A stretch of 64,000 nucleotides of DNA from Desulfoferula mesophila (GTDB taxonomy: Bacteria; Desulfobacterota; Desulfarculia; Desulfarculales; Desulfarculaceae). The position numbers and the translations under genes are program-made. Each line of letters opens with the position of its first letter. Positions within the stretch are counted from its first letter, which is position 1. Below are positions 51,876 through 62,636 of the stretch, one piece after another. The notes below the pieces were generated by a model. It was not told the origin of the DNA. It did not search any database and saw only the letters and a list, made by a program, of their open reading frames with translations. The stretch covers positions 2,867,501 to 2,931,500 of the forward strand of contig NZ_AP028679.1 of the NCBI RefSeq assembly GCF_037076455.1, given 5' to 3'.

Positions 51876-52685
51876 TTAGTGCCAGTCAACAGTAGAAACT
51901 TCGGGTGAATTTATAGCGAGGTATTCGGCTGGTGTCAGGTTGCCGAGGGACTCATGAGGGCGTTCCTCGTTGTACTCCTTGAGCCAGCGATCCGTGATTT
52001 CCCGCACCTCGCTTAGACGGGAAAATATGTAAAGGTCCAGCACCTCTTCCCGATAGGTCCGGTTGAAGCGTTCAATGTATGAATTCTGGGTGGGCTTGCC
52101 GGGCTGAGTGAAACCCAAATCGATACTATGCTCCTCGGCCCATTGGGCCATAGCTACACTGACCAGCTCCGGGCCGTTGTCCAGCCTCAGCCTGGACGGG
52201 TAGCCCCGCCAGGCAGCGATACGCTCCAGCACTCGGATTATCCTTTGGGCGGGGAGATTGACGTCCACCTCTATGGCCAGGGCCTCTCGATTGAAATCAT
52301 CCACCACATTAAAGGTCCTGAATCGCTGGCCGCCATACAGGGCATCGCTCATGAAGTCCACCGACCAGCAGATATTGGCCAGATCCGGCACTGCAAGCGG
52401 CTGGGGATCACGAGTAGGCAGGCGCTTCTTACCCTTCCTGCGAAGGTTTAGCTTCAGGGCGCAGTACACTCGGTACACCCGCTTGTGATTCCAGCCATGT
52501 CCATCCCGCCGAATTACTTGAAACAGTTTGGCAAAGCCGTATCTGGGATATTTGTCTGCCAGCGAAGTCAGCGCCTCGATGATCGGACCATCGTCGCGGG
52601 GCTTGGGTCGGTAGGCATAAACCGACCGGCTCAGCCTCAGGGCGCGGCAGGCCCGGCGAATGCTCAGACCGTGCTCTTTGCACAT
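51876..52685 (-). CDS. IS3-family transposase OrfB (DDE integrase domain)
   Basis: This 269-residue catalytic part has an HTH_21-like start (EHGLSIRRACRALRLSRSVYAYRP) and an rve integrase core with the acidic triad in WSVDFMSDAL, LRLDNGPELVS and NSYIERFNRTYREEVLD. It is probably made as an OrfAB fusion: the frame continues upstream of the ATG as NIRPAGRRDLAKF and meets orfA at GAAAGAAAAATA, where a -1 slip would join them. Confidence 0.93.
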   Translation of the reverse strand: MCKEHGLSIRRACRALRLSRSVYAYRPKPRDDGPIIEALTSLADKYPRYGFAKLFQVIRRDGHGWNHKRVYRVYCALKLNLRRKGKKRLPTRDPQPLAVPDLANICWSVDFMSDALYGGQRFRTFNVVDDFNREALAIEVDVNLPAQRIIRVLERIAAWRGYPSRLRLDNGPELVSVAMAQWAEEHSIDLGFTQPGKPTQNSYIERFNRTYREEVLDLYIFSRLSEVREITDRWLKEYNEERPHESLGNLTPAEYLAINSPEVSTVDWH

Positions 52686-52717
52686 GAACTTAGCCAGATC
52701 GCGCCGACCCGCTGGCC

Positions 52718-52984
52718 TTATATTTTTCTTTCGATGACGTCCTTCAGAGCCCGATTCTCAAGGCTCAAGTCGGCGTACATCTGCTTTAGACGCCTGTTTT
52801 CTTCTTCAAGCTCCTTGAGCCGGACGATGTCCGAGGCCTCCATGCCCCCGTACTTGGACTTCCATTTGTAGTAGGTGGCGCTGCTGACACCGTATTCCCG
52901 GCAGACCTCCTTGGCGGTCCTGCCCCCTTCCACCTCTTTCAGAATTTTGACGATCTGAGTTTCGCTGAATCTGGTCCTGCGCAT
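52718..52984 (-). CDS. IS3-family transposase OrfA (helix-turn-helix, leucine-zipper)
   Basis: This 88-residue protein has an HTH_Tnp_1 domain (RTRFSETQIVKILKEVEGGRTAKEVCREYGVSSATYYKWKSKYGG) followed by a heptad region (RLKELEEENRRLKQMYADLSLENRALKDVIERK). It binds the element ends and, through frameshifting, forms the N-terminus of the full transposase. Confidence 0.93.
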   Translation of the reverse strand: MRRTRFSETQIVKILKEVEGGRTAKEVCREYGVSSATYYKWKSKYGGMEASDIVRLKELEEENRRLKQMYADLSLENRALKDVIERKI

Positions 52985-57433: not shown

Positions 57434-57584
57434 GCCGGGCCAGGCCCAGGATAAGCAACACAGCGCGTCCAGCAACCGGCTCTCCAGGCCGCCGAAGCCG
57501 TTGCGGTGCTTGCCTCGCCGCCCCAGCGGCGCGGCAAGGCGCGCTTATTGACAGCCCCCCTCGCCCGTGTAAGAATTTCGCCAT

Positions 57585-57745
57585 CATAGGAGCGGGTGGC
57601 CATAAGGGCCCCAAAGGGAAGACGGTGCGAATCCGTCGCGGTCCCGCCGCTGTAACCGGTTACGAAAGCCGCGATGCCACTGACCCAAGGTTGGGAAGGC
57701 GCGGCCGGTAGGCTTGAGCCGGAAGCCAGAAAACCTGCCCGCTCC
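57585..57745 (+). promoter_or_regulatory. cobalamin riboswitch
   Basis: The segment carries the B12-element landmarks in order: ATAGGAGCGGG, AAAGGGAAGACGGTGCGAATCC, GCGGTCCCGCCGCTGTAACCGG, GCCACTGACCC, and the closing B12 box GAAGCCAGAAAACCTGCC. It precedes an intrinsic terminator and the BtuF-CbiZ gene by about 150 bases. It should shut the cobamide transport and salvage operon when adenosylcobalamin is plentiful. The rest of the 57434-57584 gap holds nothing I recognise. Confidence 0.93.
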
Positions 57746-57833
57746 CCGGCGCCCCCCAACGCTGCGAAAGACGGTGAGGCGCCAACGACCGTTCGCACGG
57801 TCGTGCTTGGGGGTATGGAAGCAAGGGAGCATC

Positions 57834-57861
57834 CCCGAGTCCGTTGGGCTTGGGTTTTTTT
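57834..57861 (+). terminator. terminator of the riboswitch expression platform
   Basis: CCCGAG (57834-57839) pairs with CTTGGG (57849-57854, one G-U pair), followed by seven T bases at 57855-57861. A strong ACGACCG-TTCG-CACGGTCGT hairpin-like segment around 57785-57804 could be part of the alternative structure. Confidence 0.65.
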
Positions 57862-57897
57862 GTTCCTTGTTTCGGCCCCCCGGGGAAAGAGGAGACT

Positions 57898-59937
57898 ATG
57901 TCCCGCCGCTGGTTTGCGTTGTGCCTTTTGGCCGCGCTTTTGCTTTGGAGCCCGGCCCACCCGGCCTGGGCCTCGGCCGATTTCATCGACTTCGCCGGAC
58001 AACCTCACCATCTGGACGCCCCGCCCCAGCGGGTGGTGTCCCTGGTGCCCGAGGTCAGCGACGCCCTGTATGCCCTGGGGGTGGGCGGCACGCTCAAGGG
58101 CCACACCATGTACACCCGCACTCCGGCCGGGGAGCCGCCGGCCGCCCTGGTGGGCGGCTTCTTCGCGCCCAGCGAAGAGGCCATCCTCAGCCTCAAGCCC
58201 CAGGTGGTGTTCACCAGCCGGGTGCAGGCCGGGCTGGAGAAGAAGTTGGCCGCCCGGGGAATCATGGTGGTGCGTTTGCACGCCCGCGACCTGAAGGACC
58301 TCTACGCCCGCCAGGAAATTTTGGGGCTGATATACGAACGCCCCGCCCAGGCCCGCCGACTCAACGATCAGCTACGAGCGGATTTCGACCTGGTGGCCCG
58401 CAAGGTGGCCCTGGTGCCCCAGGGCGAGCGGCGGCGGGTGATGCGCCTGATGGCCGTGGACCCCCAGGGCGGCTTTGTCTACGCCCCTGGCGACGACTCC
58501 TTTCAGAACGAGCTTATCCGCGCCGCCGGGGGCATCCCTCCCCAGTTGGGGGCCAAAGGGGGCTCGGTGAAGATGAGCCTGGACCAGTGGCGGGCCTTTG
58601 ATCCCCAGGTGGTCTATGCCTGCGGCGACGCCAAGGCGGCCCGCAAGTTCCTGGAGCGTGAGGGCTGGAACCAGGTGGAGGCGGTCAAGAAGCACCGGGT
58701 GATCGCCCTGCCCTGCGACCTCACCTGCCGTCTGTCGTTGGACTCGGGGCTTTTCGCGCAATCTCTGGCCGCCAGGGTCTACGGCGATTTTTTCGCCCAA
58801 AAGAAGTACCAGCTTTATCCCTCGGAGGTGCTGAGCCGCCAGCCGCTGGAGATCGACCTGGCCTACGTGCGCCGGGCGCAGGTGGATCAGGTACGCATCC
58901 AGGACTTCGCCCATCGCACCCTGCTCATCGCTTTCAAAGCGCCCATGACGGTGCTGAGTACCTTGGAGGGCCAGCTGGACGGCGTGACCCTGATCGGTAA
59001 TCACTACATGCCGCCGCCCGCCTGGGGGCTGGGCCACGGCGGAGGCCTGGAGGAGCTGCGCCTGCGGGTGGTCCAGGCCCTGCAAATCGATGCCCGCACC
59101 TCCAGCCTGCTGTTCACCGGGGCGGACATGAACCACCTCTCCGTGCAGCGCCGGGAGGGCCAGGGCCTGGCGGTCTACGCCCTGGTCACCGCCGGGGCCA
59201 TGCACAACGCCCTGCGCATCGCCCAAGAGGGCGGGGCCTACGTGGAGCCGGGCACCATCAACATCCTGGTGCTCACCAACCGCAGCCTCACCCCCCGGGC
59301 CATGGCTCGGGCGATGATCACCATTACCGAGGCCAAGACCGCCGCGCTGCAAGACCTGGACCTGCGCAGCAGCGAGCAGCCTTTGGCCTACCAGGCCACG
59401 GGCACCGGCACCGACAACATCATCGTGGCCCAGGGCGCGGGCCCGCGGGCCGAGCTTACCGGCGGGCACAGCCGCTTGGGGGCCCTGATGGCCCAGGCGG
59501 TGTATGCCGGGGTGCTGGAGGCCCTAGCCAAGCAGAACCGTCTGCACCAGAAGCGCCCCGTCCTGTTGCGCCTAAAGGAGCGGGGAGTGAGCCTCTACGC
59601 CCTGGCCGGGGGCCGGGCGGCGGCCTGCCCTTCCGTGTCCCTGGGGCGCTTGGAGGCGGCCCTGCTGGAGCCGGACAACGCCGCCCTGGTGGAGACCGCC
59701 CTGGCCCTCAGCGACGCCCAGGCCCGGAGCCAGCTCAGCGGCCTGGGGCCTTTCCGCCAGATGTGCGACGCGCGGGCCCGGAGCATCGCCGGCCAGCACC
59801 CCCTGGCCCCGGCTCCCGATTTGCGCGGCCAGGGGCTGCCCGAGCCGCTGGCCCTGGCCCTGGGGGCCGTCATGCGCGGCCTGGCCTCCCAGCCCCAACC
59901 GATGATCCCGGTGTCCGGGGGGGAGTGCGGCTCCTGA
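57898..59937 (+). CDS. exported fusion of BtuF-like cobamide-binding protein and CbiZ adenosylcobinamide amidohydrolase
   Basis: This 679-residue protein begins with a signal peptide (RRWFALCLLAALLLWSPAHP to ASA, about 1-26). Residues about 30-290 form a BtuF/FecB-type binding domain (APPQRVVSLVPEVSDALYALG; AFDPQVVYACGD). Residues about 300-540 match CbiZ, which cleaves the nucleotide-loop amide of cobamides: LIGNHYMPPP, LFTGADMNHLSV, LVTAGAMHNALR, GTINILVLTNRSLTPRAMARAMITITEAKTAALQDL, ATGTGTDNIIVAQG and GHSRLGALMAQAVYAGV. CbiZ is normally cytoplasmic; here the signal peptide would place it outside. GAGGAG precedes the ATG at 57898. The gene is first after the riboswitch. Confidence 0.88.
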   Translation: MSRRWFALCLLAALLLWSPAHPAWASADFIDFAGQPHHLDAPPQRVVSLVPEVSDALYALGVGGTLKGHTMYTRTPAGEPPAALVGGFFAPSEEAILSLKPQVVFTSRVQAGLEKKLAARGIMVVRLHARDLKDLYARQEILGLIYERPAQARRLNDQLRADFDLVARKVALVPQGERRRVMRLMAVDPQGGFVYAPGDDSFQNELIRAAGGIPPQLGAKGGSVKMSLDQWRAFDPQVVYACGDAKAARKFLEREGWNQVEAVKKHRVIALPCDLTCRLSLDSGLFAQSLAARVYGDFFAQKKYQLYPSEVLSRQPLEIDLAYVRRAQVDQVRIQDFAHRTLLIAFKAPMTVLSTLEGQLDGVTLIGNHYMPPPAWGLGHGGGLEELRLRVVQALQIDARTSSLLFTGADMNHLSVQRREGQGLAVYALVTAGAMHNALRIAQEGGAYVEPGTINILVLTNRSLTPRAMARAMITITEAKTAALQDLDLRSSEQPLAYQATGTGTDNIIVAQGAGPRAELTGGHSRLGALMAQAVYAGVLEALAKQNRLHQKRPVLLRLKERGVSLYALAGGRAAACPSVSLGRLEAALLEPDNAALVETALALSDAQARSQLSGLGPFRQMCDARARSIAGQHPLAPAPDLRGQGLPEPLALALGAVMRGLASQPQPMIPVSGGECGS

Positions 59938-59938
59938 T

Positions 59939-60844
59939 ATGAACTACGCCCGCCCCATAGGACTGTTGCTGGTCTTGGTCCTGACCTTGGCGGCCTCCTC
60001 CGCCTGGGCCCGCCTGGTCACCGACGAGATGGGCCGCCAGGTTAAGGTGCCAGCGCAGCCCCAGCGGATCATCGGCCTGACCCCTTCGCTCACCGAGGTG
60101 GTCTTCGCCCTGGGCCTGGGCGAGAGGGCGGTGGGGGCCACCACCTGGGCCGACTATCCCCCGGCGGCGCGCAAGCTGACCAGGGTGGGGCCCTACGTGT
60201 CGCCCAACCTGGAGCGCATCTTGGCCCTGAAGCCAGACCTGGTGCTGATCAACAAGGACGGCAACCCGCCCTGGCTGGTGGATCGCCTGGGCGAGCTGGG
60301 GGTGCCGGTGTACGTCACGGTGCCCACGGTCCCCCAAGACCTGCCCGCCGGCCTGGAGCGCCTGGGCGACCTGTTGGGCGCGCCCCAGGCGGGTCGGCGC
60401 CTGGCCGACAAGCTGCGCCGGGAAATGGAACAGGTTGCCGCGAGGCTGCGCGGGGTCAAGCCCCGTCCCACCCTGATGGTCATAGGCAGCCACCCCCTGG
60501 TATCGGTGGGGCCGGAGACCATGAACGGCCACTTGCTGACCATGGCCGGGGCCAAGAACATCGCCGCCGGGATCAACCAGCGCTGGCCGCGCCTGAACCT
60601 GGAGTACATCACTGAGGCCAAGCCCCAGGTGATCATCCTCTCCACCATGGAGCGGGGCCAGAACCTGGAGCGCGACCTGACCTATTGGCGCACCCTGCCC
60701 GGCGTGGGCGACCGTCCCGGGGTGCGGGTGGAATGGATATCCTCGGACCTCATCGACCGGCCCGGACCCAGGATGGGCCAGGGGCTGGAGGAACTGGCCC
60801 GGCTGGTGCATCCCGAACGCTTCACCCCGGAGGCCAAGCCATGA
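59939..60844 (+). CDS. btuF: cobamide ABC transporter substrate-binding protein (BtuF-like)
   Basis: This 301-residue receptor has a signal peptide (RPIGLLLVLVLTLAASSAWA) and the BtuF/FecB helical-backbone metal-receptor fold: MGRQVKVPAQPQRIIGLTPSLTEVVFALGLGERAVGATTWADYP, PNLERILALKPDLVL and GAKNIAAGINQRWPRLNLEYI. It begins two bases after the fusion gene and overlaps the permease start. Under B12 riboswitch control it is most likely a corrinoid receptor. Confidence 0.92.
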   Translation: MNYARPIGLLLVLVLTLAASSAWARLVTDEMGRQVKVPAQPQRIIGLTPSLTEVVFALGLGERAVGATTWADYPPAARKLTRVGPYVSPNLERILALKPDLVLINKDGNPPWLVDRLGELGVPVYVTVPTVPQDLPAGLERLGDLLGAPQAGRRLADKLRREMEQVAARLRGVKPRPTLMVIGSHPLVSVGPETMNGHLLTMAGAKNIAAGINQRWPRLNLEYITEAKPQVIILSTMERGQNLERDLTYWRTLPGVGDRPGVRVEWISSDLIDRPGPRMGQGLEELARLVHPERFTPEAKP

Positions 60845-61842
60845 GGGCCACGCCCAGCCGGCTTTTGGCGGTTTGCCTGGGCCTGGGGCTCCTGCTGGTG
60901 CTGTCTTTGCTGGTCGGTCTGTGGCTGGGCACGGTGAGCATCGGCCCGCGGCAGTTCTGGCAATGGCTGAGCGGCGAACTGCAAGGCCCCTCGGCGATAA
61001 TCCTGGGGCAGCTGCGCCTGCCCCGTCTGCTGCTGGCCGCCCTGGTGGGGGCCTGCCTGGGTCTGTGCGGGGCGGTGTTCCAGGCCATTTTGCGCAATCC
61101 CCTGGCCGAGCCCTTCATCCTGGGGGTTTCCGGCGGGGCGGCCTGCGGAGCGGTGGCTTCGGTGCTGGTGGGGCTCACCGGCCTGTGGGGGCAGTCCGCC
61201 CTGGCCTTTGGCGGAGCCCTGGGCACCGTGGGCCTGGTCCTGGCCATCGCACGCCGCCGGGGCTCCATGGAGACCAGCACCCTGATCCTCACCGGGGTGA
61301 TGATCAACGCCTTTTTCACCGCCCTGATCATGTTCGTGATCTCCACCACCACCGACCAGAAGCTGCACGCCATTCTGTTTTGGCTCTACGGCGATCTGGC
61401 CGCGGCCAACCTGACCAAGGTGGGCCTGTTGTTGCCGGTGACCCTGGTGGGCGCCGGGGTGATTTTCGCCTACGCCCGCCACCTCAACCTGCTCACCGCC
61501 GGATCGATAGCCGCCGCTTCCATGGGGGTGGCCGTGGAGCGGGTGAAGATGATCATGTTCCTGGTGGTGAGCCTGCTGGTGGGGGTCACGGTCAGCCTGT
61601 CCGGGCTCATCGGCTTCGTGGGGCTCATGGTGCCCCACCTGGTGCGCATGACCCTGGGCCACGATCACCGTCTGCTGTTGCCCGCCTCGGCCCTGTTCGG
61701 AGCCTGCTTCCTCATGCTGGCCGACACCGTGGCCCGCATCATCATCAGCCCCTCGGCCCTGCCGGTGGGGGTGGTCACCGCCTTTTTGGGCGCGCCGTTT
61801 TTCGTGTTGCTCATGGCCAAACGAGGGAGCCGCTGGTGGTAG
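60841..61842 (+). CDS. btuC: cobamide ABC transporter permease (BtuC-like, FecCD family)
   Basis: This 333-residue permease has about ten hydrophobic segments. FecCD motifs are LRLPRLLLAALVGACLGLCGAVFQAILRNPLAEPFILGVSGGA, the coupling region GLIGFVGLMVPHLVRMTLGHDHR, and the end LPVGVVTAFLGAPFFVLLM. The ATG overlaps the previous stop (ATGA), and the next ATPase start overlaps its end. It forms the transport channel for corrinoids with BtuD. Confidence 0.94.
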   Translation: MRATPSRLLAVCLGLGLLLVLSLLVGLWLGTVSIGPRQFWQWLSGELQGPSAIILGQLRLPRLLLAALVGACLGLCGAVFQAILRNPLAEPFILGVSGGAACGAVASVLVGLTGLWGQSALAFGGALGTVGLVLAIARRRGSMETSTLILTGVMINAFFTALIMFVISTTTDQKLHAILFWLYGDLAAANLTKVGLLLPVTLVGAGVIFAYARHLNLLTAGSIAAASMGVAVERVKMIMFLVVSLLVGVTVSLSGLIGFVGLMVPHLVRMTLGHDHRLLLPASALFGACFLMLADTVARIIISPSALPVGVVTAFLGAPFFVLLMAKRGSRWW

Positions 61843-62636
61843 AGCACGGTCAGATAGCCTTGCGCGGCCAGGGCCTGAGCTTCGGCTACGGCAACGCCCA
61901 GGTGATCCGCGAGGTGGACCTGAGCCTGAAGCGGGGCGAACTCCTGGGCATAATCGGGCCCAACGGCAGCGGCAAATCCACCCTGCTGGGCCTGCTCTGC
62001 GGCCTTTTGCCCCCCAGCTCGGGCGGGGTGGAGCTGTTGGGCCGCAAAATCGGCTCCTACACCAGGGTGGAGGTGGCCCGCCTTCTGGGCCTGGTGCCCC
62101 AAGACGCCGAACTGGCTCCGGGCTTCACCGTGCGCCAGACGGTGCTCACCGGCCGCTTCGCCCTGCAAGGGGGGCGGATGTTTGAGAACCACGAAGACCT
62201 GGCCGCCGCCCAAAAGGCCCTCGACGACACCGGCATGAGCGGTCTGGCCCAGCGCCAGACCGGTGAGCTGTCCGGCGGCGAGCGCCAGCGTCTGGCCCTG
62301 GCCAGGGCCCTGGTCGCCGAGCCCCGGGTGCTGCTTTTGGACGAACCCACCAGCGCCCTGGACCTCAAGCATCAGTTGGGCATGATGAGCCTCTTGGAAC
62401 TCGCCTGCGCCCGCGACCGCCTGGCCGTGTGCCTGGTGAGCCACGATCTCAATCTGGCGGCCCTGTTTTGCCACCGCCTGCTTTTGATCAGCCAAGGGCA
62501 GTCCCTGGCCTGGGGCCCGCCCCAGGAGGTGCTCACCCCCGATCTGCTGGCCCAGGCCTATGGGGTGGAGGTGTTGGTGGACCGCGAACCCAGCCGGGGC
62601 AGGCCCCGAGTGACCCTCAGCGCACCCCGGCCTTGA
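61836..62636 (+). CDS. btuD: cobamide ABC transporter ATP-binding protein (BtuD-like)
   Basis: This 266-residue ATPase has Walker [18 protein letters not shown], the signature LSGGERQRLALARALV, Walker B VLLLDEPTSALDLKHQ and the switch VSHDLNLAALFCHRLLLI, typical of FecE/BtuD. The GTG at 61836, seven bases after GAGGGAG, is preferred to earlier starts inside btuC. It ends the riboswitch-controlled operon; a new strong promoter begins within its last codons. Confidence 0.93.
   Translation: MVEHGQIALRGQGLSFGYGNAQVIREVDLSLKRGELLGIIGPNGSGKSTLLGLLCGLLPPSSGGVELLGRKIGSYTRVEVARLLGLVPQDAELAPGFTVRQTVLTGRFALQGGRMFENHEDLAAAQKALDDTGMSGLAQRQTGELSGGERQRLALARALVAEPRVLLLDEPTSALDLKHQLGMMSLLELACARDRLAVCLVSHDLNLAALFCHRLLLISQGQSLAWGPPQEVLTPDLLAQAYGVEVLVDREPSRGRPRVTLSAPRP

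Follow-up and report, generated by a model that had tools for sequence, protein, structure and literature searches.

A predicted exported BtuF-CbiZ fusion behind a cobalamin riboswitch: a candidate system for cobamide processing outside the cytoplasm in Desulfobacterota

Described CbiZ enzymes and corrinoid uptake systems

The remodelling of cobamides is regarded as taking place inside the cell, and adenosylation requires cytoplasmic ATP. CbiZ of Rhodobacter sphaeroides and Methanosarcina mazei, an amidohydrolase of adenosylcobinamide or pseudocobalamin, is intracellular in the literature that we found, and the characterised enzymes are described with adenosylated substrates (PMC3541065), which counts against action outside the cytoplasm. 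The protein analysed here, a BtuF-CbiZ fusion from Desulfoferula mesophila, has the Pfam family and the conserved motifs in common with these enzymes and therefore presumably cuts the same bond, but its CbiZ domain is predicted to be exported and is joined to a binding domain. A BtuD-CbiZ fusion of Cytobacillus spongiae (489 aa) likewise couples CbiZ physically to corrinoid import; unlike the fusion in D. mesophila, it acts inside, because it is attached to a cytoplasmic ATPase. The BtuBFCD system of Escherichia coli combines a TonB receptor, BtuF, BtuC, BtuD and a cobalamin riboswitch, as is the case here, but without an extracytoplasmic cleavage step. CbiR of Akkermansia muciniphila also carries out a first step of cobamide remodelling that has been suggested to be coupled to uptake, although it has an unrelated fold and cuts the phosphoribosyl bond, and the periplasm is not mentioned in that report (PMC7733943). 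A coupling of CbiZ to uptake was already suggested in the same work (PMC7733943). Our full-text literature searches returned no exported CbiZ and no BtuF-CbiZ fusion, although the original CbiZ papers may mention fusions. The new element is the compartment of CbiZ.

The fusion locus of Desulfoferula mesophila

We analysed a stretch of 64,000 nucleotides of the D. mesophila genome (contig NZ_AP028679.1), hereafter the window. The locus comprises the following features in window coordinates.

57548 to 57576, + strand: sigma-70-like promoter, TTGACA-17-AAGAAT with TG ahead of the second hexamer (1 found against 0.1 expected in shuffled sequences)
57577 to 57756, + strand: cobalamin riboswitch aptamer (RF00174, 109.2 bits against a cut-off of 31.5)
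57834 to 57861, + strand: intrinsic terminator between riboswitch and fusion gene, a 9-bp stem (57834-57854) followed by T7
57898 to 59937, + strand: predicted exported BtuF-CbiZ fusion, 679 aa, ATG start, ribosome-binding site AGAGGAG
57898 to 57972, + strand: signal peptide of the fusion, predicted cleavage between AWA and SA
58033 to 58713, + strand: BtuF-like (Peripla_BP_2) domain of the fusion by Pfam, associated with conserved C242, C273 and C277
58933 to 59514, + strand: CbiZ domain of the fusion by Pfam, motifs intact, T453 within PGTIN
59939 to 60844, + strand: second, separate BtuF, 140 bits to the BtuF model, N-terminus signal-peptide-like, both docking Glu residues kept in its family
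60841 to 61842, + strand: BtuC permease of FecCD type, assigned from homologues and position, overlapping btuF by 4 bases
61836 to 62636, + strand: BtuD ATPase (ABC_tran, 6e-36), with a probable GTG start

These assignments bear out what the earlier note had read from the letters alone, namely a B12 riboswitch ahead of a single open reading frame with a signal peptide, a BtuF-like domain and a CbiZ domain (the latter now supported by Pfam and by motif alignment), followed by a second BtuF, BtuC and BtuD in that order. The leader has a fold z of -2.8, and the terminator is the probable expression platform of the riboswitch. The longest open reading frame begins at TTG 57844; this codon sits inside the terminator stem and has no ribosome-binding site, whereas AGAGGAG precedes ATG 57898, which was therefore taken as the start of the fusion. 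Elsewhere in the window, isrN (RF01396) matched at 52577-52719 (+) with 57.7 bits (cut-off 44), an unexpected hit here; the name of the family refers to an Hfq-binding sRNA.

Peripla_BP_2 matched residues 46-272 of the fusion (6e-16), and the fold of this N-terminal domain matched 1n2z in Foldseek with a TM of 0.75 on the target. CbiZ (PF01955) matched residues 346-539 (5e-49; 167 bits against a curated cut-off of 27) over profile positions 2-191 of 191. TAGxxxNAxR, PGTIN, TEAK, ATGTGTD and GGH are all intact in this domain, and the motifs are kept in 57 diverse fusions as well as in solo and named CbiZ proteins; a degenerate CbiZ was rejected on these grounds. The earlier note had named an uncleaved, cytoplasmic N-terminus and the loss of CbiZ catalytic residues as findings that would speak against it; with the family motifs intact in the alignment, neither applies. 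A genome search identified the fusion as the sole CbiZ of D. mesophila.

A search by sequence found no solved structure of CbiZ, and the CbiZ part was modelled with AlphaFold from five sequences (mean pLDDT 67). At this model quality, the best match was NylC with a Z of 13.0 and 4.2 Å over 199 residues, followed by Nyl50, ornithine acetyltransferase, ThnT and DmpA-type enzymes, whereas unrelated folds stayed below 9; Foldseek was also run on the model alongside this Z-scored comparison with DmpA/NylC-type folds. In sequence, GTINIIVLTN of CbiZ aligns with NTTxxVxVTN, the stretch that starts at the nucleophile of the P1 peptidases, and T453 (window 59254-59256) is thereby placed on the Thr or Ser nucleophile that opens the second chain. 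This sequence signal is weak: the hhalign score of CbiZ against DmpA/NylC-type enzymes was 26.7, whereas 60 column shuffles reached at most 21.9 and the reversed profile 15.4, yet the probability was only 4-11%. The CbiZ domain is thus tentatively predicted to resemble the DmpA/NylC/ThnT/ornithine acetyltransferase (ArgJ-like) threonine amidohydrolase fold of peptidase family S58, and because the hhalign probability is only 4-11%, T453 is put forward as a candidate nucleophile.

Export and distribution of the fusions in Desulfobacterota

The fusion begins with MSRRWFALCLLAALLLWSPAHPAWA, followed by SA after the predicted cleavage site, and resembles a signal peptide. Signal peptides were called with a purpose-written rule, not a trained predictor, and the same rule was applied to all groups: a charged start, a hydrophobic stretch of 12 residues, and a cleavage site or lipobox. 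By this rule, the window protein has a charged n-region, a hydrophobic h-region and a cleavage site, and 53 of 58 BtuF-CbiZ fusions carry a signal peptide or lipobox (the latter in L073, L074 and L080, for example), against none of 35 CbiZ proteins of cytoplasmic type. Separate BtuFs were positive in 15 of 17 cases and BtuD proteins in 0 of 19; the stretch just ahead of CbiZ inside the fusions gave 0/59. Several fusions that fail the rule still look signal-peptide-like by eye. Among CbiZ proteins without BtuF, the single positive (1/36) is L004, a lipoprotein whose position in the tree is inside the exported clade and which has lost the binding domain but retained the export signal; a BtuF-less lipoprotein CbiZ of this clade is recorded as L126 (genome G019; CbiZ at 1306-1884 of its contig). 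In the tree, the exported CbiZ domains form one clade on one side of a branch (99/98). A D. mccartyi CbiZ, which has no obvious signal peptide, lies outside it, although its place is unsure because of a long branch. Export of the fusion, as proposed in the earlier note together with a survey of signal peptides in such fusions, is therefore well supported by the sequence comparison. The signal peptide of the window protein begins with SRRWF, which its nearest relatives also have, and the protein may be exported by the Tat route, but its h-region is strongly hydrophobic.

The survey of fusions covered Desulfobacterota. Of the genomes searched, 12 of 20 in the family, 49 of 63 in the class and 81 of 395 in a sample of the phylum encode CbiZ. 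Two architectures were read from the DNA, the BtuF-CbiZ fusion, in most cases 670-730 residues long, and solo CbiZ, typically with about 400 residues. Both are present in at least 14 genomes, which suggests that CbiZ occupies two compartments of one cell. The earlier note had presented one fusion; the fusions form a clade spread over many families, and the BtuF-CbiZ arrangement is a conserved system of Desulfobacterota. A search of plasmids returned CbiZ matches of other types and no fusion. Three shorter exported fusions were also found, with open reading frames of 524-539 aa (L085, 4378-5949; L086, 4426-5997; L087, 1431-3047), whose match to the BtuF model covers only about half its length; L085 is accompanied by a TonB receptor and three cobalamin riboswitches. 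One genome carries three tandem BtuF-CbiZ fusions behind TonB-receptor open reading frames (L069, 3000-11108).

Gene neighbourhoods were compared in 45 loci with longer flanks, many other loci stopping at contig ends. About half of these 45 loci have a TonB receptor near the fusion, and genes for DUF2162, MotA/ExbB and DUF2149 proteins may lie between the two, as in L090, L093 and L096 (2433-4172); these three genes may serve specifically to energise the TonB receptor. Of 25 loci scanned for riboswitches, 16 have one of the cobalamin type upstream on the same strand, and every locus with BtuCD adjacent also encodes a separate BtuF (11/11). A chance or isolated fusion was rejected: further fusions were found in relatives, and since the gene order recurs in other genomes, the arrangement in the window is not due to chance.

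Proposed function and alternatives

Neither CbiD nor CbiC was found in a search of the D. mesophila genome, in which CbiB, CobA, CobS and a CobU-CobT-CobS cluster are present. With the former missing and the later genes present, it looks as if the corrin ring is not made and the cobamide is finished from cobyric acid. In the same genome, two cobalamin riboswitches precede a TonB receptor gene. We consider it probable that the locus encodes a riboswitch-controlled system for extracytoplasmic cobamide processing and uptake. When corrinoid is scarce, the riboswitch would permit transcription, and the fusion would leave the cytoplasm and lose its signal peptide. Corrinoids entering through the TonB receptor would be held by the fused BtuF-like domain, while the tethered CbiZ would hydrolyse the amide that bears the aminopropanol/nucleotide arm, leaving cobyric acid for the separate BtuF to carry to BtuCD. 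In the cytoplasm, CobA would adenosylate the cobyric acid, CbiB would re-attach the linker, and CobU, CobT and CobS would restore an arm that bears the lower ligand native to the cell. Judged from the sequences, the fusion most likely serves to cleave cobamides outside the cytoplasm. The comparison supports export, intact enzyme motifs, the operon, and the absence of corrin-ring genes alongside the later genes; we infer activity without prior adenosylation, the substrate range and the hand-over to the second BtuF.

The exported CbiZ might instead mainly salvage environmental cobinamide to cobyric acid, rather than act on intact cobamides with foreign lower ligands. Archaeal CbiZ does act on adenosylcobinamide (PMC3541065), and CbiB of this genome can use cobyric acid, but CobU of the same genome salvages cobinamide without CbiZ, and a D. 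mccartyi CbiZ falls outside the exported clade, although the tree does not settle the substrate. We regard a main role in cobinamide salvage as rather unlikely.

The partner of BtuCD was considered from the docking residues. BtuF docks to BtuC via Glu74 and Glu202, and Glu-Arg pairs of this kind are indispensable in relatives (PMC3741162). Docking positions were read from an alignment to E. coli BtuF (Glu72, Glu202), in which residues 72 and 74 of this protein are Glu and Ile; Glu72 was taken to be the residue numbered Glu74 in that study. Glu occupies both positions in all 16 separate BtuFs but in only 4 of 55 fused domains. Acidic residues at both positions are found in 13/55, including the window protein (E94, D229), and 36/55 have an acid one place past the C-lobe position (E203); the fused domain might still dock, as this shifted acid could replace the C-lobe Glu. 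Such docking would allow a reading in which the fusion itself binds BtuCD and cleaves its cargo at hand-over, the second BtuF being a parallel carrier of uncleaved corrinoids, and the fusion of CbiZ to a substrate-binding domain inside a btuCD operon would fit it. We consider this quite improbable, given the contrast in docking Glu residues, the separate BtuF wherever BtuCD is adjacent, the shortened BtuF part of L085-L087 and its absence from L004; on this alignment, the fused domain has likely ceased to dock to BtuCD. The hand-off of the product to the second BtuF that the earlier note proposed gains support from the docking contrast and the BtuCD loci.

The fused domains also differ in their cysteines, with C242 and C273 in 54/55 and C277 in 45/55, whereas separate BtuFs have no Cys at the first two positions and one at the third in 3/16. 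The codons lie at window 58621, 58714 and 58726, C273 and C277 falling just beyond the Pfam Peripla_BP_2 match, and the residues align with E. coli 215, 241 and 245, positions that we take to be near the B12 pocket. These cysteines could form a disulfide or serve as cobalt ligands.

It is highly improbable that the CbiZ domain lacks activity or has another amide as its substrate and that the protein stores or senses corrinoids outside the cytoplasm: the literature searched shows no assay of any member of the exported clade, but every family motif is kept across the 57 fusions, and the CbiZ domain persists where BtuF is shortened or lost.

With extracytoplasmic cleavage as the preferred reading, it is a serious though tentative possibility that in much of a phylum the first remodelling step takes place outside the cytoplasm: a threonine-nucleophile amidohydrolase of DmpA/NylC fold would be joined to a corrinoid trap that no longer docks to BtuCD, and cobyric acid would pass to a second, dedicated BtuF. 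The predicted DmpA/NylC-like fold with T453 would bear on the whole CbiZ family by offering a possible catalytic mechanism. If the first step takes place outside, corrinoids of any lower ligand could be imported through one transporter, an enzyme independent of adenosylation would be required, and severed nucleotide loops and cobyric acid could reach neighbouring cells. The fusion offers a single protein with which to test where remodelling begins in sulfate-reducing communities.
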